Shown here piece by piece: positions 38,021-52,764 of a stretch of DNA of 56,977 nt. The position numbers and the translations under genes are program-made. Position 1 is the first letter of the stretch, and every line of letters starts with the position of its first letter. The notes under the pieces were generated by a model that was not told the origin of the DNA, did not search any database, and saw nothing but the letters and a program-made list of their open reading frames with translations. This DNA comes from Lachnospiraceae bacterium (GTDB lineage: Bacteria > Bacillota > Clostridia > Lachnospirales > Lachnospiraceae), in the NCBI GenBank assembly GCA_017622875.1, contig JAGAQG010000006.1, positions 1 to 56,977 on the forward strand. The letters are read 5' to 3'.

Positions 38021-38734
38021 ATGAAGGAAATATATCATGTATTGGTCGTGGAGGATGACGAACAGATCCGTGACGGAATTGAAATCTATCTGAAAAGTCA
38101 GGGATATGAGGTATCCAAGGCGGCTGATGGAATCGAGGGACTGGCAGTCTTAAAGGAAAAGGAAATTCATCTGGCAATCATAGACGTCATGATGCCGAGA
38201 ATGGACGGAATCCATATGGTGATGCGCCTTCGAAAGGAATATGATTTTCCGGTCATTATGCTTTCTGCAAAATCAGAGGAAGTGGATAAGATCATGGGAC
38301 TGAATATGGGAGCGGACGATTACGTGACCAAACCGTTTCAGCCGCTGGAGCTGCTTGCGAGGGTTAATTCCCATCTGCGCCGCTACAAACGTTTTCTGGA
38401 AATGACCAGTCAGGGAAAGGAGGAGCCGGAAAATGTGTACCGTATCGGAGGTATTGAGTTAAACGAGGATACCAAAGAGGTACTGGTAGATGGCGAGACT
38501 GTCAAAATGACTCCCATGGAATTTAAGATTCTGGCACTTCTGATGAGAAGCCCGGGACGTGTATTTTCAGCCGAGGAGATTTACGAAAGAGTCTGGAATG
38601 AGCGTGCCATCAATACGGACACTGTCATGGTTCATGTAAGAAAGATTCGGGAGAAAATTGAATACAACCCGAAGGAACCAAAATATTTAAAGGTGGTGTG
38701 GGGCGTTGGATACAAAATTGAAAAAATCTCATAA
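38021..38734 (+). CDS. OmpR/PhoB-family response regulator
   Basis: 237 residues. Receiver domain with VVEDDEQ, phosphorylation site Asp55 in IIDVMMPRMDG and DDYVTKPF; C-terminal winged helix at about 140-235 (VKMTPMEFKILALLMRSPGRVFSAEEIYERVWNE). GCAGGAGG precedes the ATG and a TATACT -10-like hexamer lies about 40 bases upstream. Its end overlaps the kinase gene by 29 bases. Confidence 0.96.
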   Translation: MKEIYHVLVVEDDEQIRDGIEIYLKSQGYEVSKAADGIEGLAVLKEKEIHLAIIDVMMPRMDGIHMVMRLRKEYDFPVIMLSAKSEEVDKIMGLNMGADDYVTKPFQPLELLARVNSHLRRYKRFLEMTSQGKEEPENVYRIGGIELNEDTKEVLVDGETVKMTPMEFKILALLMRSPGRVFSAEEIYERVWNERAINTDTVMVHVRKIREKIEYNPKEPKYLKVVWGVGYKIEKIS

Positions 38735-41090
38735 ACTTACGAACTTGATTATTGCGCTGATCGTTCTGATTCCGGCACTGGTCTTGGTATGTCTTTATCC
38801 GACCATGGAAACAGCAATGCTGGATAAAAAGGAACAGTGGCTGTCTGAATGGGAACAGCGGAAAGAGGAATACCTGCTGGAGTCCACGGAGGTATCCTAT
38901 GCGGAAACGGTGTCGGAGCCGACGGAAGAACTAACGGAAGAAGTATGGGTAGAGGATACTTTCTATTTGCAGGATAATTTTGTTAATTACGCTGTAGAAG
39001 CAAGCTATTATCAATATGCCATGCTTTTGCAGGATGCAACCGGTGAAGAGGTATTTACAGATGTTCTGGAAAATTATGGATGGGTCAATGATTTCTATGA
39101 AATGACCGAAAATACCCAATGGTACGTGGAATATGTGATGCATCAGAGGGATGAAAACAGTGGTGCTGAATTGTATACTGCGGGAGAGTGGAGTGATTTA
39201 TCAGAAGAAGAAATGCAGTCTCTGCTTGCCGGTAACAGTCTGGAAACAGAGCGTGAAGAGGAGTTAAAGGCCAGCGGATTTCTTGGATATCTTACCATTG
39301 AATTTGATAGTTTCGGGAAGCTTTCGAATATCAGGATTCGTGTGGATGAAAATGTGGTATATAATGATCAGGTTTACCAGAGAGCAAAATCGTCCATTGA
39401 ACAGTATCGTAACAATGTAGAATATTATGAGGGAGAAACCGGGAATGTCTATGAACAGGAAGATATTGCCCTGGAGGTCTGCCCGAAAAATTTCCGAGCA
39501 GTTTATCTGATCTATGATAATAACGAACAGTTTATATATTCTGACATGGAAGGTTACTATAACGAATACGACTATGCCATGGATTACTACGAATATGAAC
39601 CGTTTTATGCTCCGGAAGAACTGTATTTCGCAACAGGGGCTTACTGGATCGTACTGGCGCTTGCAGTGTTTGTACTCTTTGCGGCGATGATTCTTCCGTT
39701 TTTCAAAAAGCTGGAGACAGGATGGGAAAAACTGTTCTGTATGCCGACAGAAATTGCGTTGTGTGTTGCGGGCGCGGGAATTGTGCTTGCATGCGGAATG
39801 TGTCTGCTCATGTCATGTACAACAATGAGCCACCTGAATGAATATATCATCACAAATAACCATCCAATTGAGCTTTTGGGGTATTCATTTACAGTGGAGC
39901 AGTGCTATTACATTTTGCTGGCAGTGAACTTTCTGGGATGGGCAGCAGCCTTCTTTATGGAATATATCTGTGCGGCACAGCTTCGTCAGTTCTTCTGCGG
40001 GCCAATGTATTATATCAAACACAGACTTCTGGGCGTAGTATTTGTGCGATGGATCTGGAAGCAGTGTAAACGTCTGTACCAGTATGTGACAGATATCGAT
40101 ATCAGCGAAAATATGCAAAAGAGTATTGTAAAGATCGTGCTTGCAAATGCGGTGATTGTGATACTTCTTTGCTGCTGTTGGTTTGTTGGTGCCGCAGGTG
40201 TGATTTTTTACTCCATTGCTTTGTATATTCTGCTGAAAAAATATGGTAATAAGTTACAAAAACAATATCAGAGTATTTTAAATGCCACAGGCCAGATGGC
40301 CGAAGGAGATCTTCATATCACACTGGATGAGGATCTTGGAATCTTTGAACCTCTGGGAAGAGAACTGGAAGGAGTTCAGCAGGGCTTTGCCAAAGCGGTA
40401 GCAGAGGAAGCAAAGAGCCAGAATATGAAGAGTGAGCTGATCACCAATGTATCTCATGATCTAAAAACTCCGCTGACATCCATCATTACTTATGTGGATC
40501 TTCTGAAAAATCCGGATGTTACAGAGGAAGAGCGAAAATCCTATATTGAAACGCTGGATTTAAAATCCCAGAGACTGAAAGTGCTGATTGAAGACCTGTT
40601 TGAAGTCAGTAAGGCGAATTCAGGGAATGTGAAGATGAATTTCATGGATGTGGATATCGTGAAGCTGATGAAAGAGGTCCGTGTGGAAATGTCCGATAAG
40701 ATCGAAGAGAGCAATCTGGACTTTCGGTGGAATCTGCCGGAGGAAAAAGTGATTCTTTCTCTGGATGGACAGAGGACCTACCGTATTTTTGAAAATCTTC
40801 TGAACAATGCGGTAAAATATGCGATGCCATTTACCAGAGTTTATGTGGATATTCTGAATCAGGAATCCGAAGTCGTGGTCATTTTCAAGAATATGTCTGC
40901 GCAGGAACTGAAAATGGACGCTGATTATCTGACAGAACGTTTTGTCAGAGGTGACAGCTCCAGAAAATCTGAAGGAAGCGGACTTGGACTTGCCATTGCA
41001 AAGAGTTTTACGGAACTTCAGCATGGAGAATTCAATATCAGTGTAGATGGAGATCTGTTTAAGGTAACAATCAGATTTCTCAAAAATTAA
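38706..41090 (+). CDS. large multi-spanning sensor histidine kinase
   Basis: 794 residues, far longer than typical partners. Helix at about 12-30; an acidic, Tyr/Glu-rich extracytoplasmic domain to about residue 310 (EDIALEVCPKNFRAVYLIYDNNEQFIYSDMEGYYNEYDYAM); roughly six helices between 313 and 515; a HAMP-like linker; HisKA with His584 in LITNVSHDLKTPLTSI; HATPase with IFENLLNNAVKYA and GSGLGLAIAKS. The start is the TTG at 38706 overlapping the regulator gene by 29 bases; G-rich sequence upstream serves as ribosome binding site. Ligand unknown. Confidence 0.93.
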   Translation: MDTKLKKSHKLTNLIIALIVLIPALVLVCLYPTMETAMLDKKEQWLSEWEQRKEEYLLESTEVSYAETVSEPTEELTEEVWVEDTFYLQDNFVNYAVEASYYQYAMLLQDATGEEVFTDVLENYGWVNDFYEMTENTQWYVEYVMHQRDENSGAELYTAGEWSDLSEEEMQSLLAGNSLETEREEELKASGFLGYLTIEFDSFGKLSNIRIRVDENVVYNDQVYQRAKSSIEQYRNNVEYYEGETGNVYEQEDIALEVCPKNFRAVYLIYDNNEQFIYSDMEGYYNEYDYAMDYYEYEPFYAPEELYFATGAYWIVLALAVFVLFAAMILPFFKKLETGWEKLFCMPTEIALCVAGAGIVLACGMCLLMSCTTMSHLNEYIITNNHPIELLGYSFTVEQCYYILLAVNFLGWAAAFFMEYICAAQLRQFFCGPMYYIKHRLLGVVFVRWIWKQCKRLYQYVTDIDISENMQKSIVKIVLANAVIVILLCCCWFVGAAGVIFYSIALYILLKKYGNKLQKQYQSILNATGQMAEGDLHITLDEDLGIFEPLGRELEGVQQGFAKAVAEEAKSQNMKSELITNVSHDLKTPLTSIITYVDLLKNPDVTEEERKSYIETLDLKSQRLKVLIEDLFEVSKANSGNVKMNFMDVDIVKLMKEVRVEMSDKIEESNLDFRWNLPEEKVILSLDGQRTYRIFENLLNNAVKYAMPFTRVYVDILNQESEVVVIFKNMSAQELKMDADYLTERFVRGDSSRKSEGSGLGLAIAKSFTELQHGEFNISVDGDLFKVTIRFLKN

Positions 41091-41250: not shown

Positions 41251-42333
41251 ATGAAAAAGAAACTTTTAGCAATTCTGATGGCTGCAACTATGGTACTTTC
41301 TTTAGTAGCATGTGGCGGCAGCGAAGAAACAGCAGAAACTCCTGCAGCAGAAAATGCAGGCGAAGAAGCAGCAGAAGAAGCAACAGTGGATGCTTCTGAC
41401 CTGAAAATCGGTCTTGTAACTGACTTAGGTGGTGTAGAAGACCAGTCCTTCAACCAGTCTTCATGGGAAGGCTTACAGAGAGCAGCAGCAGACTTTGGTG
41501 TAGAAGTTAACTACTTATCTTCTTCTACAGACGCTGACTACGCTCCAAACATTGAAACATTTGTTGATGAAGAATATGACCTCATCATCAGCGTTGGTTT
41601 CTTATTAGCAGATGCTACAAAAGCAGCAGCTGAAGCTAACCCAGACGTTAAATTTGCAATCATTGATGATTCTTCATGTGCAGATCTTCCAAACGTATCA
41701 TGCTTAACATTCAAGGCTGAACAGTCTTCTTACCTTGCAGGATATGTTGCAGGTCTTATGACAGAAAAGAACAACATCGGTTTCGTACTTGGTATGGCAA
41801 GTGATACAATGCACCCATTCGGATATGGATACTGCGCAGGTGCAATCGATGCGAACCCAGACGTAACAATCCAGATGGCAAATGCGAATGCATTTGGTGA
41901 CCCTGCTACAGGTTCTACTCTTACAACAAACTTTGTAACAAATGGTGCTGATGTTGTATTCCACGCAGCAGGTGCTACAGGTACAGGTGTAATTTCCGAA
42001 TGCCAGGCAAAAGGAATCATGGCTGTTGGTGTAGACTCTGACCAGAGCTACCTTGCTCCGGAAACAGTTATTACATCCGCTATGAAACGTGTTGATAACG
42101 CTGTATATGCGACAGTTGAAAGCCTTGTAAATGGTACACTTGAAGGCGGCTTAGCTGTATTCGATATCAACAACGGCGGTGTTGATATCGCTCCTACAAC
42201 AGATTTACTTTCTGAAGAAGTAATCGCAGCAGTTGAAGAAGTTAAAGCACAGATCAAATCTGGTGAAATCACAGTTCCAGCTACAAAAGATGAATTTGAA
42301 GCAAAATACGGTGATGTTTACACATTAGATTAA
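41251..42333 (+). CDS. BMP/PnrA-family nucleoside-binding lipoprotein
   Basis: 360 residues. Lipoprotein signal ending at Cys21 (LSLVACGG), Ala/Glu linker, then a BMP-family domain: KIGLVTDLGGVEDQSFNQSSWEGLQRA, NVSCLTFKAEQSSYLAGYVAGL, VVFHAAGATGTG and GVDSDQSYLAP. BMP lipoproteins such as PnrA and YufN capture purine or general nucleosides for an ABC importer. AAAAGGAG precedes the ATG. Very strong codon bias suggests high expression. The ATPase and permeases lie downstream after the glycyl-radical pair, so this is the operon's first gene. Confidence 0.95.
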   Translation: MKKKLLAILMAATMVLSLVACGGSEETAETPAAENAGEEAAEEATVDASDLKIGLVTDLGGVEDQSFNQSSWEGLQRAAADFGVEVNYLSSSTDADYAPNIETFVDEEYDLIISVGFLLADATKAAAEANPDVKFAIIDDSSCADLPNVSCLTFKAEQSSYLAGYVAGLMTEKNNIGFVLGMASDTMHPFGYGYCAGAIDANPDVTIQMANANAFGDPATGSTLTTNFVTNGADVVFHAAGATGTGVISECQAKGIMAVGVDSDQSYLAPETVITSAMKRVDNAVYATVESLVNGTLEGGLAVFDINNGGVDIAPTTDLLSEEVIAAVEEVKAQIKSGEITVPATKDEFEAKYGDVYTLD

Positions 42334-42357
42334 TAAAAACAAATATCTAAAGAATGA

Positions 42358-42390
42358 CCGCTGCCCCGTTTGCGGGGCGGCGGAAATTTT
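42358..42390 (+). terminator. GC-rich hairpin within the nucleoside operon
   Basis: CCGCTGCCCCG (42358-42368) pairs with CGGGGCGGCGG (42373-42383), one non-ideal pair, around a 4-base loop, then AAATTTT. The T-run is short, so it may be a partial terminator that lowers expression of downstream genes relative to the binding protein, or an RNA-stabilising end for the first message. Confidence 0.6.
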
Positions 42391-42409
42391 ATGGAGGAGA
42401 GGAGAAAAT

Positions 42410-43954
42410 ATGAGAGAAATTTCCATGGAACGCGTAAATAAAACAAGAGAGGCTATCCTTGAAACAATCAAAAGCCCAACACTGACACATGAACAGAAGG
42501 TATGCGCTGCCTCCGGTCTGGCGGATTCTCTGTTAGAGGTCTTAGATTTGCCGGAAGGACTTGATGAGCTTTTGAATGTTCCAATCGACCGTAAATGTAT
42601 CTGTGATTTAAATGAAGGCCATGCGCCGATGCGTCCAAGGTACATTATTCCGGATTATGAGAAGTTCATGAGGGAAGGAAGCGAGTTTTTACAGCTTGCA
42701 CCTCCAACAGACCTTTATGAAGCAATCAATAATCTTCTGATTTTCTATAAACATGTGCCAAGTATTACAAATTTCCCGGTATATTTAGGCCAGCTGGACG
42801 AATTGCTGGAACCGTTTATTGACACAGTGCCGGAAGAACAGGCGAAAAAACTGATCAAAATGTTTTTAATTCATGTAGACCGCACTGTATTGGACTCTTT
42901 CTCCCACGCAGATATTGGTCCAAAAGCTACAAAAGCAGGTTATATGCTTTTAGAAGCAGAAAAAGAATTAGAACAGGCTGTGCCAAACTTAAGTATGAAA
43001 TATGAAGAAGGCCTGACAGAGGATGAATTCGCACTGGCAGCAGTAGATTGTGCACTTCACAGCGCAAAACCAAGCTTTGCAAATCACAAAATGTTCAAAA
43101 AGGAACTGACAGAAGATTATGTGATTGCAAGCTGCTATAATGGACTTCGCGTAGGCGGAGGTTCTTACACTTTATCACGTTTGATTCTCGGAAACATTGC
43201 GAAGCGCGCAGAAAATATTCAGGACTTTAAGGAAAATCAGCTGCCATATGTAATGGATATCATGGCAAGATATATGGATGAGAGAATCCGTTTTGAAGTA
43301 GAAGAAAGCGGTTTCTTTGAAAATAATTTCCTTGCAAAAGAGGGATTCATCCACAGAGAAAAATTCACAGCTATGTTTGGTCTGGTAGGACTTGCAGACT
43401 GTGTGAATATTCTTCTTGAAAAAGAAGGAAAGAGCGGAAGATTCGGCGCAGACGTCCACGCAAATGATCTTGGTGTAGAAATCATGGACATTATTGATGA
43501 ATTTAATAAGAATCATAAAAATCCATACTGTGAAATTACAGACAATCACTTCCTGCTTCACGCACAGGTCGGTATTTCGGATGATATCGACGTAACACCA
43601 GGTACAAGAATTCCAATCGGAGAAGAGCCGGAAGAATTGATCGACCACTTGCTGGTACTTAGTCGATTCCACAAATACTTCCCATCTGGAACAGGAGATA
43701 TTTTCCCGATCGATGTGACAGTACATAAGAATCCGGAATTCGTACTTGATATCGTAAAGGGTTCTTTTGTAAAAGATTTAAGATATTTATCTTTCTATTC
43801 CAGTGACAGTGATGTGGTGAGAGTCACAGGATATCTCGCAAAGAAATCAGAGATTGAAAAGCTGCTGGCAGGCTCTGCAGTACTTCAGGATACAACAATG
43901 CTTGCGAAGGATGCCTTTAAAAATGCACACATTCCAGACAGAAAGGTACGTTAA
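42410..43954 (+). CDS. yjjI: YjjI-family glycyl-radical enzyme
   Basis: 514 residues, matching E. coli YjjI (about 516). The glycyl-radical motif RVTGY is at 471-475 with Gly474 as radical site, coded at 43829-43831. A candidate thiyl Cys242 lies in DYVIASCYNGLRVGG. It is shorter than pyruvate formate-lyase-type enzymes (about 750-850). The reaction catalysed by YjjI is not established to my knowledge. GGAGGAGAGG precedes the ATG. Its stop overlaps the activase start (TAATG). It lies in a nucleoside transport and salvage operon, recalling E. coli where yjjI-yjjW lie beside deoCABD, so a nucleoside- or deoxyribose-derived substrate is a reasonable inference. Confidence 0.92.
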   Translation: MREISMERVNKTREAILETIKSPTLTHEQKVCAASGLADSLLEVLDLPEGLDELLNVPIDRKCICDLNEGHAPMRPRYIIPDYEKFMREGSEFLQLAPPTDLYEAINNLLIFYKHVPSITNFPVYLGQLDELLEPFIDTVPEEQAKKLIKMFLIHVDRTVLDSFSHADIGPKATKAGYMLLEAEKELEQAVPNLSMKYEEGLTEDEFALAAVDCALHSAKPSFANHKMFKKELTEDYVIASCYNGLRVGGGSYTLSRLILGNIAKRAENIQDFKENQLPYVMDIMARYMDERIRFEVEESGFFENNFLAKEGFIHREKFTAMFGLVGLADCVNILLEKEGKSGRFGADVHANDLGVEIMDIIDEFNKNHKNPYCEITDNHFLLHAQVGISDDIDVTPGTRIPIGEEPEELIDHLLVLSRFHKYFPSGTGDIFPIDVTVHKNPEFVLDIVKGSFVKDLRYLSFYSSDSDVVRVTGYLAKKSEIEKLLAGSAVLQDTTMLAKDAFKNAHIPDRKVR

Positions 43955-44796
43955 TGCAGGCAGTTGTGAATAAGGTCATTCCATTCAGCAGCGTGGATGG
44001 ACCGGGAAACCGTACCGCGGTATTTTTACAGGGCTGCAATATCAACTGCAAATACTGCCATAACCCGGAGACACGTGCACTGTGTATCGAATGTGGTGTC
44101 TGTGTGGAACGGTGTCCGGAGGGCGCATTGGAAAGAGGTTCGGATGGAAAGATTATTTTCCACCCGGAAAAATGTATTCAGTGCGATACCTGCATTCACG
44201 TATGTCCAAATAACAGTTCTCCAAGAACTGCGGTAATGACACCAGAGGAATGTTACAAAAAAGTAAAAAAACAGATTCCATTTATCCGCGGACTGACAGT
44301 TTCCGGCGGAGAATGTATGCTAAGACCGGATTTTCTGGAAGCACTTTTCAAACTTGCGAAACAGGACGGGTTAAATACGATGATTGACAGCAATGGTACC
44401 ATTCCCTTCTGGGAATATCCCTCTCTTTTAGAGGTGACTGACGGAGTCATGCTGGACATCAAAGCGTTTAAAAATGAAGATCATGTAAGAGTGACCGATG
44501 AAAAAAATGAAATTGTTTTAAAAAATGCGGTTTATCTTGCAGAAAATAAGAAATTATATGAAGTAAGAGCAGTGATTGTTCCTGATCTGTACGATACGAA
44601 ATCAAGTATCACACAGATGGCACAATTTTTAGCACCTTATTTAGAAATTCAGGAATTCAGAATCAAACTGATTGCTTATAGACCTATGGGAGTTAGGGAA
44701 GAATACGCACATTACCAGGTGCCGAGCCAGAATTATCTTGAAGAGCTGGCCGACATTCTAAAGGCTTATGGGTTTAAAGAAATAATCATCATTTAA
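43954..44796 (+). CDS. yjjW: YjjW-family glycyl-radical enzyme activase
   Basis: 280 residues, radical SAM. The CX3CX2C cluster site is Cys28, Cys32 and Cys35 in LQGCNINCKYCHNPET. Two ferredoxin-type [4Fe-4S] motifs follow: CIECGVCVERC (44-54) and CIQCDTCIHVC (74-84). It uses SAM and reducing electrons to abstract hydrogen from the glycine of its partner. The ATG overlaps the yjjI stop, so they are made together. Eighteen bases separate it from the ABC ATPase gene. Confidence 0.94.
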   Translation: MQAVVNKVIPFSSVDGPGNRTAVFLQGCNINCKYCHNPETRALCIECGVCVERCPEGALERGSDGKIIFHPEKCIQCDTCIHVCPNNSSPRTAVMTPEECYKKVKKQIPFIRGLTVSGGECMLRPDFLEALFKLAKQDGLNTMIDSNGTIPFWEYPSLLEVTDGVMLDIKAFKNEDHVRVTDEKNEIVLKNAVYLAENKKLYEVRAVIVPDLYDTKSSITQMAQFLAPYLEIQEFRIKLIAYRPMGVREEYAHYQVPSQNYLEELADILKAYGFKEIIII

Positions 44797-44813
44797 CGAA
44801 GGAGGACGGAACA

Positions 44814-46355
44814 TTGGGAAGAGTGAGTCATATGGATGAGAGCACAGTTGTTATCGCAATGAAGGACATCGTAAAGAAATTCGGCGATTTTACTGCGAAT
44901 GATCACATTAACCTGACCGTACACAAAGGTGAAGTACACGCTATTTTAGGAGAGAATGGTGCCGGAAAAAGTACACTGATGAATGTACTTTGCGGATTGT
45001 ACAAGCCGACAAGCGGACAAATTCAATTAAATGGAAAGGATGTTACTTTTAACAGTCCAAAAGATGCGATTGATATGGGAATTGGTATGGTACATCAGCA
45101 CTTCATGCTGATTCAGCCGTTTACCGTAACTGACAATATCATTCTGGGCGTAGAACCTACAAAGGGTCTGACAGTAGACAAAAAGACAGCCAGAGAAAAG
45201 GTGTTGGAACTGTCTGAACGTTATAACATGAAAATTGATCCGGATGCAAAGATTGAAGATATTTCTGTAGGGATGCAGCAGCGAGTAGAAATCTTAAAGG
45301 TTTTATACCGCGGTGCTGATGTACTGATTCTTGATGAACCGACAGCTTCTCTGACACCACAGGAAATTGAAGGTCTGATGGAAATCATTCAGAATCTGAC
45401 TGCTGATGGAAAGAGCATCATCCTGATCACACATAAACTGAAAGAAATCACTGCATCTTCTGATCAGTGTACAATTATCCGTCAGGGTAAATATATTGAT
45501 ACTGTGAAAGTCGCAGAAGTTAACGAAAATGACCTGGCAGCCATGATGGTAGGACGTGATGTTAACTTTAAGGTGGAAAAGAAAGAACAGGAAGCGGGAG
45601 AAGTGGTACTGGATGTGAAAGGAATCCGTGCGAAAGATTACCGTGGTGTAGAAATCTTAAATGGTCTGAATCTGCAGGTTCGAAGAGGAGAAATCGTAGG
45701 GCTTGCGGGTGTCGATGGCAATGGTCAGACAGAATTAGTAGAAATTTTGACAGGTCTTCGTAAGGCTGAAGCAGGAGAAGTAAAGATTCTTGGAAAAGAT
45801 GTATTCAATGCAACTCCAAAGCAGACTTTTGAGGCTGGAATTTCAAGTATTCCGGCGGACCGTCAGAAACATGGTCTTGTATTAGAATTCTCTAATGAAG
45901 ACAATATGATCTTACAGCATTTTGAAGAAGCTCCATTTGCGAAGAAGGGCTTCCTTGACAGAAAAGCAATTCGCGAACATGCAGCAAAATTAATGGAAAA
46001 ATTCGATGTGCGTCCAAGAGGTACAGAAGGTGCCCCATCTGCTACCTTATCCGGTGGTAACCAGCAGAAGGTCATTATCGCTCGCGAAGTAACAAACGAC
46101 AAGGATTTACTCATTGCGGTAAACCCTACCCGTGGTCTGGACGTTGGTGCTATCGAATTCGTACACAAATATTTAGTAGAACAGCGTAACAAAAACCGTG
46201 CGGTGCTTCTCGTATCTTTCGAGCTTGACGAAATCATGAGCTTATCTGACAGAATCGAAGTTATCTTTGACGGCCAGATCACAGGAAGTGTTGCAGGTAA
46301 AGATGCGGATGAAAAAGAATTAGGATACTTAATGGCAGGAGGTAAACAGGCATGA
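44814..46355 (+). CDS. nucleoside ABC importer ATPase, duplicated domains
   Basis: 513 residues with two ABC cassettes, as in YufO/NupA and RbsA. First: LGENGAGKST Walker A, ISVGMQQRVEILK signature, LILDEPTASL Walker B. Second: GVDGNGQTE, ATLSGGNQQKVIIAREV and NPTRGLDVGA, a degenerate site. The likely start is TTG at 44814, as AAGGAGG lies 8 bases upstream; the ATG at 44832 has only GAGTGAG. Overlaps the first permease by 4 bases (ATGA). Confidence 0.95.
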   Translation: MGRVSHMDESTVVIAMKDIVKKFGDFTANDHINLTVHKGEVHAILGENGAGKSTLMNVLCGLYKPTSGQIQLNGKDVTFNSPKDAIDMGIGMVHQHFMLIQPFTVTDNIILGVEPTKGLTVDKKTAREKVLELSERYNMKIDPDAKIEDISVGMQQRVEILKVLYRGADVLILDEPTASLTPQEIEGLMEIIQNLTADGKSIILITHKLKEITASSDQCTIIRQGKYIDTVKVAEVNENDLAAMMVGRDVNFKVEKKEQEAGEVVLDVKGIRAKDYRGVEILNGLNLQVRRGEIVGLAGVDGNGQTELVEILTGLRKAEAGEVKILGKDVFNATPKQTFEAGISSIPADRQKHGLVLEFSNEDNMILQHFEEAPFAKKGFLDRKAIREHAAKLMEKFDVRPRGTEGAPSATLSGGNQQKVIIAREVTNDKDLLIAVNPTRGLDVGAIEFVHKYLVEQRNKNRAVLLVSFELDEIMSLSDRIEVIFDGQITGSVAGKDADEKELGYLMAGGKQA

Positions 46356-47413
46356 AAAAGAGAAGAATTTTAGAATCCAGCGTGCTTTATACAATCATTG
46401 CCATTGTTATCGGATTTGTCATCGGAGCACTTTTCCTGGCATCAGCAGGCATCAGTCCGGCAGTTGCTTACGGAAAGCTTATTGATGGCGTGTTTGGAAA
46501 ACCGAAATTCATGATTTGGACGCTGGTTTATGCCAGCCCATTGATCTTTACGGGTTTAAGCGTTGCATTCTCTTTACGTACAGGTGTATTTAATATCGGT
46601 GCAGAAGGTCAGTTTGTGGTTGGTGCCATGGCAGCTTGTGCATGTGGTATCATTCTGAAATTGCCGCCGGTAATCCATGCGATTGTATGTGTGCTTGTGG
46701 CAGCACTTGCCGGATTTATCTGGTCTTACCTTGTAGGAATTTTAAAAGTAAAACGTGGTATTCATGAAGTATTATCCTTCATTATGTTTAACTGGATCGC
46801 GTTCTACTTATCAAACTTTTTGGTAAATACAGAAACACTCCACAAGGAAGGAAGCGGTGAAGCTACCAAGAATGTACTTGATTCTGCCCGCCTTTTATTT
46901 CCGGAAGGAATCTTAAAAGCACTGAACTGTAATGGTGCGAACTGGGGATTTATCCTTGCCATTGTTGCAGCCATTGTTATGTGGATTATTATTGAAAAGA
47001 CAACTTTAGGTTATAAATTAAAAGCAGTAGGTTTTAATAAAGATGCAGCGACCTTCGGCGGCATCAATGCAGACAGATCGATTCTTACAGCCCTTGGTAT
47101 TTCTGGTGCGCTGGCAGGTATCGGCGGTGCTGTTCAGGTACTTGGTATGTCAGGGCGTATCAGCCAGTTTGCAGGTCAGGAAGGCTATGGCTTTGAGGGA
47201 ATCACAGTTGCCCTGATCGCAGGATCAAACCCGATTGGATGTATTTTTTCAGGTATCTTTTACGGTGCAATGAAGTATGGCGGTTCTAAGCTGACTATGG
47301 TAGGTGCTCCGGAAGAAGTTATCGATATCATTATGGGATGCGTAATTATCTTCATTGCTATTTCCAGTGTATTTAAAGAAATGTTCCTGAAAATTGGAAA
47401 GAAGAATCAGTAG
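46352..47413 (+). CDS. nucleoside ABC importer permease 1
   Basis: 353 residues, about nine helices, BPD_transp_2 family (YufP/NupB-like). It contains GLSVAFSLRTGVFNIGAEGQFVVGA and the EEVIDIIMGCVIIFIAIS end typical of the larger permease. The ATG overlaps the ATPase stop (ATGA). It pairs with the next permease to form the channel. Confidence 0.95.
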   Translation: MKKRRILESSVLYTIIAIVIGFVIGALFLASAGISPAVAYGKLIDGVFGKPKFMIWTLVYASPLIFTGLSVAFSLRTGVFNIGAEGQFVVGAMAACACGIILKLPPVIHAIVCVLVAALAGFIWSYLVGILKVKRGIHEVLSFIMFNWIAFYLSNFLVNTETLHKEGSGEATKNVLDSARLLFPEGILKALNCNGANWGFILAIVAAIVMWIIIEKTTLGYKLKAVGFNKDAATFGGINADRSILTALGISGALAGIGGAVQVLGMSGRISQFAGQEGYGFEGITVALIAGSNPIGCIFSGIFYGAMKYGGSKLTMVGAPEEVIDIIMGCVIIFIAISSVFKEMFLKIGKKNQ

Positions 47414-47426
47414 GAGGTAAAAAGAA

Positions 47427-48359
47427 ATGGATGCTTTTATCAGTAATTTAGGACTTTTAATTAATGCAACCTTAGTTGCTACACCTCCACTGTTACTTGC
47501 AGCTTTAGGCTCCTGTTTTTCAGAACGAAGCGGTGTAATCAACCTGGGTATTGAAGGAATGATGACCATTGGTGCATTTGTAGGTGCAGCAGTTGGTCTT
47601 GTAGTAAACAATGGATGGATTGCTTTTTTGGCAGGCGGTCTTGCGGGTGCAGTAATGGCAGCGATTCATGCGGTGGTATGTATTCAGTTCCATGCAGATC
47701 AGACAATCGCTGGTACAGCTATGAATTTTATCGGACCTGGTCTTGCGTTATTCTTATGTAAGGCAATCTTTGGTTCTACAGATACACCGCCATTGTCAAT
47801 CAGCGACAAATTACCAAAACTGTTCGAAGGCGTTTTTGAAGCAGGTTCCTTCCTTGGAAACGTATTAAATGTTTACACGGTTGCCTATCTTGTATTCGTT
47901 TTTGCAGCAATTGCGGTATTTGTATTCTACAAAACAAAATTTGGTACCCATTTAAGAGCAGTAGGTGAACATCCGGAAGCATGTGAATCTTTAGGTATTA
48001 GCGTATACAGAGTACGTTATATCTGCGTTATCATTTCAGGTTTCATGGCTGGTCTGGGCGGCGCGTTTGTAACAACTGCGACTATTAACCAGTTCCGTCC
48101 AAGCGTTATCGTAGGACAGGGCTTCATCGCAATCGCAGCAGTTATTTTCGGAAAATTCTCACCGGGCGGTGCAGCAAAGGCATGTCTGCTTTTCGGCTTC
48201 TGCAGCGGTGTAAAATCAATTTTGAGCATGAGCAGTGTGGTTGACCCGAACCTCATTTCCATGATTCCATATATTGTGACAATTGTCGCATTAGTATTGT
48301 TTGTTGGTAAGGCTCACACACCAGCAGCAAACGGTAAACCATTCGTAAAATCTAAATAA
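47427..48359 (+). CDS. nucleoside ABC importer permease 2
   Basis: 310 residues, about nine helices, BPD_transp_2 family (YufQ/NupC-like). It has LGSCFSERSGVINLGIEGMMTIGA near the start and GQGFIAIAAVIFGKFSPGGA, hallmarks of the smaller permease. AGTAGGAGG lies 9 bases upstream of the ATG. Thirteen bases separate it from permease 1. Confidence 0.95.
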   Translation: MDAFISNLGLLINATLVATPPLLLAALGSCFSERSGVINLGIEGMMTIGAFVGAAVGLVVNNGWIAFLAGGLAGAVMAAIHAVVCIQFHADQTIAGTAMNFIGPGLALFLCKAIFGSTDTPPLSISDKLPKLFEGVFEAGSFLGNVLNVYTVAYLVFVFAAIAVFVFYKTKFGTHLRAVGEHPEACESLGISVYRVRYICVIISGFMAGLGGAFVTTATINQFRPSVIVGQGFIAIAAVIFGKFSPGGAAKACLLFGFCSGVKSILSMSSVVDPNLISMIPYIVTIVALVLFVGKAHTPAANGKPFVKSK

Positions 48360-48368
48360 TATGACCGG

Positions 48369-48403
48369 ACGGTATTCGCGTATAGTTTACAGGCGGATAC
48401 CGT
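48369..48403 (+). promoter_or_regulatory. hairpin between permease 2 and deoD
   Basis: ACGGTATTCGC (48369-48379) pairs with GCGGATACCGT (48393-48403), one G-U pair, followed by TCTTTG. It may be an attenuator or mRNA-processing structure; the T-run is too weak for a confident terminator call. Confidence 0.5.
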
Positions 48404-48438
48404 TCTTTGTAAAAAATAGAAAACAGGAGGAAATAGAT

Positions 48439-49146
48439 ATGGCAATTCCAACACCGCACATTGGTGCACAGAAAGGTGATTTTGCAAAAACAGTATTGAT
48501 GCCGGGAGATCCACTCCGTGCAAAGTACATTGCAGAGACTTATTTAGAAAATCCAAGATTAGTGACTTCTGTCAGAAATATGTTAGGATATACAGGAACT
48601 TATAAAGGAAAAGAAATTTCCGTTATGGGCGGCGGTATGGGTATTCCTTCAATTGGCATCTACTCTTACGAATTATTTAATTTCTATGATGTTGACCAGA
48701 TTATCCGTATCGGTTCTGCAGGTGCATTACAGGATGATATGGAAATGATGGATGTTGTTATCGGTATGGGCGCATGTACAGATTCCAATTTTGTAAAACA
48801 GTATAATCTTCCGGGATATTATGCTCCGATTGCAGATTATGAGCTGATGAACCGTGCTATTGAAACAGCAAAGGCTCAGGGAACGAAGGTCAGAGTGGGT
48901 AATGTTCTTTCTTCTGACGTATTCTACAGTGCAGATGAAACCGTAAACCAGAGATGGAGAGACATGGGGGTTCTCTGTGTGGAAATGGAAGCAGCAGCCC
49001 TTTATATGAACGCAGTTAAAGCGAAAAAGAAAGCCCTTTGTATCCTGACAATTTCTGATCACATTTTCAAAAATGTTGCATTAAGCGCAGAAGAACGTCA
49101 GGTGGGATTTGGCAAGATGATGGAAATTGCACTGGAACTTGCATAA
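48439..49146 (+). CDS. deoD: purine nucleoside phosphorylase, DeoD type
   Basis: 235 residues, full length. It shows the DeoD pattern MPGDPLRAKYIAE, phosphate-binding RNMLGYTGTYKG, GSAGALQDDMEMMDVVIG and VCVEMEAAALY, with SDH near the end. It splits purine (deoxy)ribonucleosides with phosphate into base and (deoxy)ribose 1-phosphate. The start is the ATG at 48439 behind CAGGAGG; the frame is open upstream through the hairpin. The sugar phosphate feeds DeoB downstream. Confidence 0.97.
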   Translation: MAIPTPHIGAQKGDFAKTVLMPGDPLRAKYIAETYLENPRLVTSVRNMLGYTGTYKGKEISVMGGGMGIPSIGIYSYELFNFYDVDQIIRIGSAGALQDDMEMMDVVIGMGACTDSNFVKQYNLPGYYAPIADYELMNRAIETAKAQGTKVRVGNVLSSDVFYSADETVNQRWRDMGVLCVEMEAAALYMNAVKAKKKALCILTISDHIFKNVALSAEERQVGFGKMMEIALELA

Positions 49147-49177
49147 GAAATTTTGGAGTGCCGGGAGGACATAGAGA

Positions 49178-49600
49178 ATGCTTGATAAAAAAATCATCGA
49201 AGAAATGATTGAAACAGCCATTGAAATGACAAAAATGTCTTATACACCATACTCTAATTTTAAAGTAGGTGCGGCATTGCTTGCAAAGAATGGACAGATT
49301 TTCAAAGGCTGCAACATTGAAAATGCAGGATATACACCGTCTAACTGTGCAGAACGCACAGCATTCTTTAAAGCAGTCAGTGAAGGTGTGAAGGAATTTG
49401 AGGCAATCGCAGTGGTAGGCGGTCAGAACGGAGTTCTTACAGAGCTTGCAGCACCATGCGGTGTATGCCGACAGGTCATGATGGAATTCTGTGAACCAAA
49501 GGAATTTAAGATCATCATGGCAACTGATAAAGAAAATTATAAGATCATGACTTTGGAAGAATTACTTCCAATGGGCTTTGGTCCTGCCAATTTGGCTTAA
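49178..49600 (+). CDS. cdd: cytidine deaminase
   Basis: 140 residues, homotetrameric short type. Zinc site CAERTAFF (Cys57, Glu59) and PCGVCRQ (Cys94, Cys97), with substrate motif YTPYSNFKVGAALL. It converts cytidine and deoxycytidine to uridine and deoxyuridine. GGGAGGACA precedes the ATG. It lies between deoD and deoB in the salvage operon. Confidence 0.97.
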   Translation: MLDKKIIEEMIETAIEMTKMSYTPYSNFKVGAALLAKNGQIFKGCNIENAGYTPSNCAERTAFFKAVSEGVKEFEAIAVVGGQNGVLTELAAPCGVCRQVMMEFCEPKEFKIIMATDKENYKIMTLEELLPMGFGPANLA

Positions 49601-49630
49601 GTAATTAATCAGGAAAGGATTCGTGATTAA

Positions 49631-50821
49631 ATGCAGAAAATTAATCGTGTATTTGTTGTCGTTATGGACTCTCTGGGAGTTGGAGCCATGGTAGATTCTC
49701 CAGAATATGGAGATGTGGGAGTCAATACCCTGGGACATATTTCAGAAGCAGTAGAGAACTTTGAAATTCCAAATTTACAGAAGCTGGGAATGGCCAATAT
49801 TATTCCATTAAAGCAGGTAGAAGCAGTGGAAAAACCTTATGGCTATTACGGAAAGATGAATGAAAGAAGCCTCGGAAAGGATACCATGACCGGTCATTGG
49901 GAAATGATGGGCCTTCATGTAACAACACCGTTTAAGACCTTTACAGAAACAGGATTTCCGAAGGAATTAATCGACGAGCTGGAAAAAAGAACCGGTCGCA
50001 AGGCTATTGGTAATAAGAGTGCCAGCGGTACGGAAATTCTTGACGAATTGGCAGAGGAAGAAATCAAATATGGTCATATGATCGTGTATACTTCTGCGGA
50101 TTCCGTTCTTCAGATTTGCGGACATGAAGAAGTAACAGGTCTTGATAATTTATATAAATGGTGTGAAATTGCAAGAGATATCACCATGAAGGATGAATGG
50201 AAAGTAGGCCGTGTCATTGCCAGACCGTATGTTGGTATGAAAAAAGGAGAATTTAAGCGTACCAGCAATCGTCATGATTATGCACTGAAGCCATATGGAA
50301 AGACAGCCATGGATTCTTTAAAAGAGGCAGGACTGGATGTGATTTCTGTAGGTAAGATCAATGATATCTTTGACGGAGAAGGTGTTACGGAAGCACATAA
50401 GTCAAAATCCTCTGTTCATGGAATGGAACAGACCATAGAAATTGCTAAAAAAGATTTTAAGGGCTTATGTTTTGTAAATCTGGTAGATTTTGATGCACTC
50501 TGGGGACACCGCAGGAATCCTCAGGGCTATGCAGAGGAAATCGAAAAGTTTGACAGGAACTTAGGTGTTTTAATGGAAACTTTAAGAGAGGATGATCTGT
50601 TGATCATCACAGCGGACCATGGAAATGATCCGACTTATACAGGCACAGATCATACAAGAGAAAAAGTACCATTTTTGGCGTACTCTAAATCCATGGAACA
50701 ATGTGGGGAGCTGCCGGAGACAGATACTTTTGCGGTAATCGGTGCAACTGTGGCAGATATTTTTGGCGTAAAGATGCCGGAAGGGACCATCGGAAGTTCC
50801 ATACTTGACAGCTTAAAATAA
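49631..50821 (+). CDS. deoB: phosphopentomutase
   Basis: 396 residues. It starts [15 protein letters not shown] (metal ligand Asp13), has the phosphorylated threonine Thr85 in [14 protein letters not shown], and the C-terminal metal site [18 protein letters not shown]. It interconverts (deoxy)ribose 1- and 5-phosphate, linking DeoD to the pentose-phosphate or deoxyribose-phosphate aldolase routes. AGGAAAGG lies upstream. Notably no deoC aldolase is in this operon. Confidence 0.97.
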
Positions 50822-50844
50822 GAAGAAACAATAGGGATAAAACA

Positions 50845-51462
50845 ATGAAAAGTATCATTATCGGAATTGCCGGTGGAACCGGTTCAGGAAAATCAACTTT
50901 TACAAATCGATTAAAGGACGAATTCAAAGATGATGTAGCAGTTATTTATCACGACAATTACTATCGAGATCAGAGCCATATCACATTTGAAGAGCGTGTA
51001 AAAACAAACTATGACCATCCGGATTCTATTGAAACTGAACTTTTGATTCAGCATTTGGAAGAACTTAAAAAAGGCAATGCGATTCAGTGCCCGGTATATG
51101 ATTACTCACAGCATAATCGCTCTGATCAGGTGACAACGGTAGAACCGAAAAAAGTAATCTTGCTGGAAGGCATTTTAGTGCTTGCAGATGAACGTTTAAG
51201 AGATTTGATTGATATCAAGGTTTATGTGGAAGCAGATGCGGATGAGCGCATTTTGAGAAGAGTGATTCGTGACGTAAAAGAACGTGGGCGTGATATTGAA
51301 GGTGTTGTAGAGCAGTATTTGACAACGGTAAAACCAATGCATTATCTTTATGTAGAGCCGACCAGAAGTACAGCGGATATTGTGATCAACAGCGGTAAAA
51401 ACCCGATTGCTTTTGAGTTAGTAAGAAACAGTATTAAGAAAATCCTTGAAACAGAAGAATAA
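50845..51462 (+). CDS. udk: uridine kinase
   Basis: 205 residues. P-loop GGTGSGKST (10-18), substrate motif HDNYYRDQSHI, and the lid RVIRDVKERGRDIEGVVEQYL. It phosphorylates uridine and cytidine. Last gene of the nucleoside operon, 23 bases after deoB, followed by a terminator. With Cdd it channels pyrimidine nucleosides to UMP. Confidence 0.97.
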   Translation: MKSIIIGIAGGTGSGKSTFTNRLKDEFKDDVAVIYHDNYYRDQSHITFEERVKTNYDHPDSIETELLIQHLEELKKGNAIQCPVYDYSQHNRSDQVTTVEPKKVILLEGILVLADERLRDLIDIKVYVEADADERILRRVIRDVKERGRDIEGVVEQYLTTVKPMHYLYVEPTRSTADIVINSGKNPIAFELVRNSIKKILETEE

Positions 51463-51534: not shown

Positions 51535-52764
51535 TTATAAATCGATAGAAATATTTTGCTGTTCGATATTGTGTTTTCTTACATATCCGGAAAGAATCAG
51601 TGTAAGAGCACCATCACCTGTTACGTTGCAGGCTGTACCGAAGCTGTCCTGGAGAGCGAATACTGTCAGCATTAAAGCTGTACCTGTTGCGTCAAATCCA
51701 AGAACACCTGTGATCAGACCTAAGGAAGCCATAACTGTACCACCTGGAACACCAGGAGCCCCAATCGCAAAGATACCAAGGAGGAGACAGAAGATAACCA
51801 TTGTACCTGCGGATGGAATTGTACCGTATAATACTTTCGATACTGTCATAACGAAGAACACTTCTGTTAATACAGAACCGCAAAGGTGAATGTTTGCAAA
51901 TAATGGAATACCGAAGTCTACCATATCGCTGCGGAGTGTTGGTTCGGATTTCTTTGCACAACGAAGAGCAACTGCTAAAGTAGCTGCGGAAGACATTGTA
52001 CCAACAGCTGTAATGTAGGCTGGACCATAGTTTTTAATAACATCAAATGGATTCTTTCCTGAGTAAGTACCAGCGATTCCGTAAAGAACTGCCATCCAGA
52101 TGTAATGACCAACCATAACGATCAGTACGACTGCGATAAATACAGGGAGCTGTTTTGTGATTGTTCCTTCATATGCAAGACCGCAGAAAGTAAGTGCGAT
52201 AAAGATTGGAAGGATTGGAATAACAACTCTTGTTACAATTTCAAGAACGATTTTCTGGAATTCATCTAATACGGCTGTAATCGTTTTTGCTTTTGTCCAC
52301 GTAGCTGCAAGACCAAGGAGTACGGAGAACACAAGGGCACTCATAACTGACATGATCTGTGGAATGTCTAACTGGAAGACTGCATCTGGAAGGGCTTTTA
52401 AACCTTCTACTTCAGATACGATAGACAGGTTTGGAATAATTGCATAACCTGCGAACATAGAAAGGAATGCAGCACCGATAGAAGAAATATAAGCAATTGC
52501 GATTGCAATTCCCAGCATTCGGGATGCATTGTTTCCGAGTTTGGTAATAGATGGTGCAATAAAGCCGATAACAATCAATGGAACACAAAATGTGATTACT
52601 TGTCCAAGAATGTATTTTGCTGATACGATTACGTTTAATAAGCCAGCTGCCAGGCCGGCTGCAGTACCTGTATCTTCGGCAGCACTTAAGGCAAGGCCAA
52701 TCACGATACCTAAAATTACGCCTACCAGGAGTTTGAATGGAAGGCTTTTTACAATTTTTTTCAT
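51535..52764 (-). CDS. dicarboxylate/amino-acid:cation symporter (DAACS family)
   Basis: 409 residues, about eight helices plus re-entrant loops. The family's serine/threonine-rich loop and helix appear as GTMSSAATLAVALRCAKK and GAPGVPGGTVMAS, followed by QDSFGTACNVTGDGALTLILSGY with the conserved NVTGD. Such carriers import dicarboxylates, serine or threonine with Na+ or H+. The ATG lies 5 bases after the desulfidase-family gene stop, so they form one operon and the substrate is probably an amino acid used by that enzyme. Confidence 0.94.
   Translation of the reverse strand: MKKIVKSLPFKLLVGVILGIVIGLALSAAEDTGTAAGLAAGLLNVIVSAKYILGQVITFCVPLIVIGFIAPSITKLGNNASRMLGIAIAIAYISSIGAAFLSMFAGYAIIPNLSIVSEVEGLKALPDAVFQLDIPQIMSVMSALVFSVLLGLAATWTKAKTITAVLDEFQKIVLEIVTRVVIPILPIFIALTFCGLAYEGTITKQLPVFIAVVLIVMVGHYIWMAVLYGIAGTYSGKNPFDVIKNYGPAYITAVGTMSSAATLAVALRCAKKSEPTLRSDMVDFGIPLFANIHLCGSVLTEVFFVMTVSKVLYGTIPSAGTMVIFCLLLGIFAIGAPGVPGGTVMASLGLITGVLGFDATGTALMLTVFALQDSFGTACNVTGDGALTLILSGYVRKHNIEQQNISIDL

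Follow-up and report, generated by a model that had tools for sequence, protein, structure and literature searches.

The 56,977-nucleotide stretch of DNA analysed here (the window; Lachnospiraceae bacterium, assembly GCA_017622875.1, contig JAGAQG010000006.1, forward strand) harbors the gene of a glycyl radical enzyme, yjjI, and that of its activase, yjjW, inside an operon credibly devoted to nucleoside uptake and salvage. Association of yjjI with nucleoside genes recurs in many other loci and was seen in no locus of nrdD, an anaerobic glycyl radical gene used as the control. Tentatively, with a confidence just short of even, YjjI is read here as an oxygen-sensitive glycyl radical enzyme that, together with YjjW as its activase, serves the anaerobic breakdown of nucleosides by redox-neutral chemistry of the ribonucleotide reductase (RNR) type. 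The YjjI family, its radical motif and its likeness to the class III RNR, NrdD, were already known; added here are the recurrent linkage to the importer, as compared with control loci, and the lack of the reducing cysteine of RNR. In its fullest form, which is doubtful, this reading would, if true, represent a new anaerobic entry to nucleoside-sugar breakdown in Lachnospiraceae, Oscillospiraceae and probably Escherichia coli. The reaction matters, since the gene is found in nearly all complete E. coli genomes (5372 of 5426) and in 17 of the 150 sampled Lachnospiraceae genera, i.e., in about one in nine.

The yjjI-yjjW pair within a nucleoside importer operon

The operon is a run of ten genes on the forward strand (41251 to 51462) in the order BMP, yjjI, yjjW, ATPase, permease, permease, deoD, cdd, deoB and udk. 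This order, assigned with NCBIfam and Pfam, bears out the initial annotation, which had placed the pair between the binding protein gene and the ATPase and permease genes of the importer, upstream of the four salvage genes. The closest solved protein to the BMP-type binding protein of the window is Lbp of C. thermocellum (7x0r, 403.8 bits), in whose crystal, according to the available part of the report, guanosine was fitted by the authors and agrees well with the density (PMC9601137). By this analogy, the importer is credibly one for nucleosides. It shares with the BMP/PnrA nucleoside importers of the ATP-binding cassette (ABC) type the PF02608 lipoprotein, the double-domain ATPase and two permeases, but differs from them in that yjjI and yjjW have been inserted behind the gene of the binding protein.

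The pair itself is intact. The open reading frames (ORFs) of yjjI (42410..43954, + strand, 514 residues) and yjjW (43954..44796, + strand, 280 residues) coincide exactly with the annotated ones, overlap by one base, and encode proteins scoring above the curated family cut-offs. Thus, YjjI matched TIGR04040 with 680.4 bits (cut-off 498.3) over residues 15-514 and PF11230 with 734.1 bits; YjjW, the product of the gene next to yjjI, matched the activase model TIGR04041 with 366.5 bits (cut-off 250.2). The catalytic motifs were likewise recovered as annotated: the radical motif RVTGY at residues 471-475 of YjjI, with the radical residue Gly474; the finger-loop cysteine, Cys242, within ASCYNG; and, in YjjW, the radical-SAM motif CNINCKYC of the CxxxCxxC type (Cys28, Cys32 and Cys35) followed by eight ferredoxin-type cysteines (positions 44-84) forming two putative 4Fe-4S motifs. 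Gly474 and the stretch Ser241-Cys242-Tyr243-Asn244 are kept in all 123 YjjI sequences longer than 470 residues. Judged from the sequence, YjjI is a member of its family by all three marks looked for, namely the full-length match above the cut-off, the radical motif together with the finger-loop cysteine, and the adjacent YjjW.

Recurrent linkage of yjjI to nucleoside genes

The count of neighbouring nucleoside genes proposed alongside the initial annotation was carried out on four sets of loci. Nucleoside markers were defined as phmmer matches to proteins of the window, of E. coli or of neighbouring genes, and 20 loci of nrdD from the same genome and the phylum sample served as the control (seven of them from YjjI-bearing genomes). 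At least one marker was present within 10 kb of yjjI in 15 of the 18 loci from the own family (the window included), in 8 of the 25 loci from the phylum, in 57 of the 80 named loci and in one of the six loci from the plasmid collection, vs. 0/20 controls (compared by Fisher tests). With xpt and psuKG omitted from the markers, the counts were 15, 5, 50, 1 and 0, respectively. An origin of this neighbourhood by chance was therefore rejected, given the empty control.

These sets differ in composition. The named set comprises the best 80 of 582 loci by similarity and leans to Lachnospiraceae; in the phylum set, 24 genes score above the family cut-off and the remaining one (L063, 307 bits) is a fragment. 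In several cases the contig ends close to yjjI, among them two of the three unlinked loci of the own family (L154 and L163). Four duplicate pairs across or within the sets were retained in the marker counts, tree and Fisher tests, and removed to obtain 125 distinct loci.

Across these distinct loci, with genes called by a simple script and opposite-strand genes disregarded, yjjI (with or without yjjW) is located directly between the BMP and ATPase genes in 44/125; other contiguous layouts with the importer account for 11/125, and in 12/125 the importer is near but not contiguous. In a tree of 124 YjjI sequences (at least 470 residues each), the label "importer within 10 kb" (67 sequences) required 13 changes vs. 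41 in shuffled labels, and at least 11 of these changes are forced by well-supported branches. Hence, the linkage is clustered on the tree, yet it has been gained or lost many times. At the genome level, the BMP family was present in 41/41 YjjI-bearing vs. 29/41 YjjI-lacking genomes (p 0.0002), the latter picked from the listed genomes and not drawn at random.

The initial annotation had pointed to the E. coli counterpart located beside deo genes, and this is indeed the case: in strain K-12, yjjI-yjjW is divergent from deoC of the deoCABD operon. The E. coli protein belongs to the same family (TIGR04040; PF11230, formerly DUF3029) and has the same radical motif and YjjW partner, but it shares 40% identity with that of the window and is encoded by a separate FNR-activated unit, not inside a BMP-type importer operon. 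The further claim that the link has been kept across phyla holds in part: the association recurs well beyond the genome of the window, but it is not universal. No BMP-type transporter gene is found on the strand of yjjI in 58 of the 125 distinct loci, and no nucleoside marker in five of the six plasmid-collection loci (Haliovirga, Chloroflexota, Aeromonas, Proteus and Vibrio); both Spirochaete loci (L121 and L125) are without the importer. With the phyla unevenly sampled, the cross-phylum statement rests on these six loci, the E. coli genomes and the two Spirochaete loci. Since at least 11 label changes are forced on the tree, the linkage is better read as a repeated, independent association than as conservation across phyla.

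The unlinked loci also speak for the strongest rival explanation: the role of YjjI would be a general anaerobic one or linked to nitrate, and common regulation or mobility, not a common substrate, would account for its location in nucleoside operons. In the accessible portions of the respective papers, E. coli yjjI is marked as FNR-activated (PMC2634741), listed among FNR-bound operons (PMC3688515) and found to be co-expressed with nitrate-respiration genes, with a predicted role in nitrogen metabolism (PMC3228777); together, these FNR, HU and co-expression data tie it to anaerobic and nitrate genes. Crp/FNR-like regulators were found near yjjI in 8/18 family, 3/25 phylum and 11/80 named loci vs. 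1/20 controls, with a profile built from five proteins, three of them from family loci. On the other hand, yjjI resides within importer operons in several layouts and lineages, for which shared anaerobic control alone is insufficient, and nrdD, the anaerobic gene taken as the control, had no nucleoside marker in any of its 20 loci. The general role is considered unlikely, though it is the alternative to be taken most seriously.

The initial annotation had also remarked on the lack of deoC in the operon. This is true of the operon, but the genome of the window (87.7% complete, with a single BMP gene at an E of 1e-20 or lower) carries deoC on another contig, C42, next to genes read as Udp-like and Tdk-like. 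Moreover, deoC is present in 40/41 YjjI-bearing (vs. 33/41 YjjI-lacking) genomes (p 0.03) and lies on the yjjI strand of the surrounding stretch in 19/125 distinct loci, so its absence here carries no weight. For the same reason, YjjI as a stand-in for a missing DeoC was rejected.

Neighbouring genes and the candidate substrates

Given the recurrent linkage to importer operons, the substrate is best sought among nucleosides and pentose phosphates. The genes recurrent near yjjI are deoD, cdd, deoB, deoC, deoA and udk as well as that of adenosine deaminase (one representative scanned, TIGR01430); in the named set, cdd was found in 25/80 loci, ada in 19/80, deoD and deoC in 17/80 each, and deoB in 11/80. 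Single loci add further genes for nucleoside sugars; in L157, these encode a RihA-like nucleoside hydrolase, Rpe and, by reading, the halves of a transketolase. The common theme of the neighbours is the nucleosides with their pentose phosphates, not any single base.

Two loci suggest a more specialized substrate, e.g., 5'-deoxyadenosine, methylthioadenosine derivatives or the sugars thereof. In L053, a single run comprises yjjI, yjjW, mtnA, a class II aldolase-like gene, a DeoR-like gene and the BMP importer. We take this arrangement to resemble the dihydroxyacetone phosphate shunt, i.e., a shunt for 5-deoxyribose or methylthioribose joined to a nucleoside importer. In L159, the best match of a protein encoded between yjjW and the importer is 5'-deoxyadenosine deaminase, with 294.5 bits, i.e., under the cut-off of 522. 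Each of these arrangements was seen in one locus, and ordinary nucleoside genes are far more common in the named set, making such a special nucleoside an improbable substrate.

A slightly less probable option is that the substrate of YjjI is the base, or some other small compound formed as nucleosides are broken down, e.g., one derived from acetaldehyde or glyceraldehyde. The gene of xanthine phosphoribosyltransferase, xpt, immediately follows yjjW in three loci, all from the same family (L054, L056 and L059; the L056 protein was scanned), and cdd and ada recur. At the same time, base-specific genes vary from locus to locus while the importer is more constant, and the RNR-type barrel predicted for YjjI (see below) would favour a sugar.

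Genes read as psuK-psuG were also encountered near yjjI in six loci (five of Clostridium and one of a metagenome-assembled genome of Bacillota). The psuK-like kinase scored under the pseudouridine kinase cut-off, and the psuG-like protein had no NCBIfam match at E 1e-10. The idea that they form one operon with yjjI was downgraded, with FolA-like, hydrolase-like and GNAT-like genes interposed or alongside in the two loci inspected.

Predicted fold, cysteines and the putative mechanism

The structural model of YjjI predicts a ten-stranded barrel with strands at residues 78, 125, 166, 193, 222, 250, 319, 382, 430 and 459, and Cys242 falls between the fifth and sixth of them. In a second look at the fold comparison of this model, the top 21 entries were all class III RNR; families missing from that list are not excluded by it, and other glycyl radical enzymes have the same barrel fold. 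According to the model, YjjI would thus share with NrdD the ten-stranded barrel, the finger-loop cysteine and the C-terminal glycyl radical.

The similarity does not extend to the reducing parts. NrdD (733 residues in the protein used vs. 514 in YjjI of the window) has five cysteines kept in 20/20 control proteins, of which YjjI has a counterpart of the finger-loop one only. In a global alignment with the profile built from the 20 control proteins, the NrdD reducing cysteine (Cys186 in L164, kept in 20/20) pairs with Tyr78, kept in 123/123 YjjI sequences; Cys186 presumably corresponds to Cys79 of the T4 enzyme. The C-terminal group of NrdD (Cys668, Cys679 and Cys682, 20/20), which we assume to be the zinc site before the glycyl loop, is absent: YjjI of the window has no cysteine after residue 374. 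Besides Cys242, none of the cysteines is invariant in the 123 YjjI sequences. The second most conserved one, Cys65, is kept in 114/123 and replaced by Asn or Phe in the importer-linked loci L156-L160. A fold like that of NrdD but lacking its reducing cysteine suggests that RNR-type chemistry is used here for catabolism and not for reduction.

The finger loop also sets YjjI apart from the other branches of the superfamily. Pyruvate formate-lyase (PFL) has adjacent catalytic cysteines, and YjjI has Ser241-Cys242 instead. The Cys-x-Glu motif is typical of glycyl radical eliminases (diol and hydroxyproline dehydratases, CutC, PflD and YbiW) and was seen in L185, L202 and L206; the YjjI sequences have Cys-Tyr-Asn in 123/123 cases.

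Several comparisons weigh against the proposed reading, as do the unlinked loci and the E. coli co-expression data described above. With the NCBIfam models, YjjI of the window had no match to NrdD at E up to 0.001, TIGR04040 being its only match. In Pfam, the PFL-like model (29.0 bits, cut-off 24.3) is ahead of NRDD (18.7 bits, cut-off 26.2); this PFL-like match has an E of 5.8e-7, and no individual segment of it passes the E limit; the model also covers eliminases. In profile comparisons, residues 150-260 of YjjI fit PFL-like enzymes better than NrdD. The pairing of Tyr78 with Cys186 is weak: residues 1-150 taken separately gave a probability of 1.2 vs. NrdD and 62.0 vs. the PFL/eliminase profile, which was built from 14/23 loci (the nine others yielded no usable ORF) plus E. 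coli PflB and whose division into PFL and "eliminase" by an ACC motif is crude. Because these N-terminal residues do not find NrdD on their own, the putative Tyr78 match is the weakest link of the mechanistic reading. Furthermore, an NrdD of Thermotoga without a suitably placed cysteine is described in the consulted part of PMC4390871; therefore, the pattern of cysteines is by itself no sufficient ground for dismissing chemistry of the RNR type.

Searches for solved relatives of YjjI did not discriminate further. By phmmer, none was found, the sole match being a crystallin at E 0.15, i.e., noise; in the profile search, all matches had E 0.05 or worse, NrdD and other glycyl radical enzymes among them. 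The YjjI profile did connect the NrdD and PFL branches, between which no direct match was obtained in the same test. If this holds, YjjI represents a sequence bridge between the two branches, and the link bears on the relationship of RNR and PFL.

The proposed sequence of events starts with YjjW, which would use S-adenosylmethionine (SAM) to place the radical on Gly474. From there, judging by the motifs and the predicted fold, the radical would reach Cys242 at the finger-loop tip inside the α/β barrel; such glycyl-to-cysteine transfer is established for the superfamily. The thiyl radical of Cys242 may then abstract a hydrogen atom from a sugar ring, either that of a nucleoside or that of its (deoxy)ribose 1- or 5-phosphate, as suggested by the barrel of the class III RNR type and by the importer, DeoD, DeoB and Udk, which handle such species. 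With an invariant tyrosine at the position of the RNR reducing cysteine, and with no second invariant cysteine, the intermediate would not be reduced; it would rather collapse by elimination or bond cleavage in a redox-neutral reaction of the dehydratase or lyase type, and Cys242 would return the hydrogen at the end. In RNR variants that lack the reducing cysteines, the nucleotide substrate decomposes. The polar residues R77, Y78, H166, N193, N225, R257, H384 and Q386, kept in at least 122/123 sequences and located on or beside the barrel strands of the model, are likely to bind the sugar or its phosphate group.

A nucleoside or pentose phosphate is a plausible substrate, with support from the predicted fold. 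The more explicit proposal, in which YjjI is an RNR-type enzyme devoid of the reducing parts and turned catabolic, abstracting hydrogen from the ribose ring with a subsequent loss of water, base or phosphate, is doubtful in this full form. In line with the initial annotation, which had called the substrate undescribed, a literature search aimed at YjjI yielded no demonstrated function in the portions of text retrieved; a search for a glycyl radical enzyme acting on sugar phosphates found no paper.

The least probable alternative, a catabolic reductase converting the ribo form to 2-deoxyribose (phosphate) or a 2'-deoxynucleoside, which DeoC would cleave to glyceraldehyde 3-phosphate and acetaldehyde as an electron sink, agrees with NrdD as the closest fold, with the frequency of deoC in YjjI-bearing genomes and on the yjjI strand, and with the widespread Cys65, but is highly improbable in view of the invariant Tyr78 at the position of the NrdD reducing cysteine, the missing C-terminal cysteine group, the loss of Cys65 in importer-linked loci and the canonical NrdD encoded by the genome of the window itself (L003, contig C6; NF005497, 1056.9 bits). 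The presence of this NrdD also led to the rejection of YjjI as the class III RNR of that genome.

Variation of the pair and other features of the window

Short YjjW proteins (238-254 residues) occur in L046-L050, L052, L055, L057 and L060. In the phylum set, YjjW is shorter than 262 residues in 9/23 cases and keeps the ferredoxin-type motif in 14/23, so the extra clusters seem dispensable. In L098, yjjI is split into two adjacent ORFs by a frameshift or an assembly error, and in L069 deoD, deoB and a Crp/FNR-like gene are located between yjjI and yjjW. One genome (G437) has two yjjI copies (L153 and L158), each with a BMP importer nearby; in that of L158, Cys65 is replaced by Asn. The synonymous divergence (dS) between yjjI of the window and that of L065 is saturated. 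No relative was confirmed on viral contigs in a search with one protein.

The first gene of the operon encodes the BMP/PnrA-type nucleoside-binding lipoprotein (41251..42333, +; PF02608, 262.3 bits). It is followed by a 76-nt gap with a GC-rich hairpin (42358..42383, +), the gap having a fold energy of -30.5 kcal/mol. The hairpin probably lowers the expression of the downstream genes relative to bmp. Read by eye, a hairpin is also present in the bmp-yjjI gap of many relatives, in some of them with a T run after it, as if for a partial transcription stop after the binding protein gene.

Downstream of yjjW, the importer ATPase with two ABC domains (44814..46355, +) and the permeases (46352..47413 and 47427..48359, both +) match several ABC models, all below the cut-offs of those models among the matches listed. 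Of the salvage genes, deoD, encoding purine-nucleoside phosphorylase, is listed at 48361..49146 (+; TIGR00107, 316.4 bits, match from residue 33); its family matches begin at residues 31-33, so the listed start is probably too early and the true one lies near 48439, about 26 codons inside the ORF. It is followed by cdd for cytidine deaminase (49178..49600, +; TIGR01354, 149 bits), deoB for phosphopentomutase (49631..50821, +; TIGR01696, 553.3 bits) and, as the last gene, udk for uridine kinase (50845..51462, +; TIGR00235, 254 bits).

Neither Rfam families nor tRNA genes were found when the window was scanned for them. An inverted repeat was read from the sequence downstream of udk. The operon is flanked upstream by a response regulator and histidine kinase pair (38021-41090) and downstream by a sodium:dicarboxylate symporter gene on the opposite strand (51535-52764).

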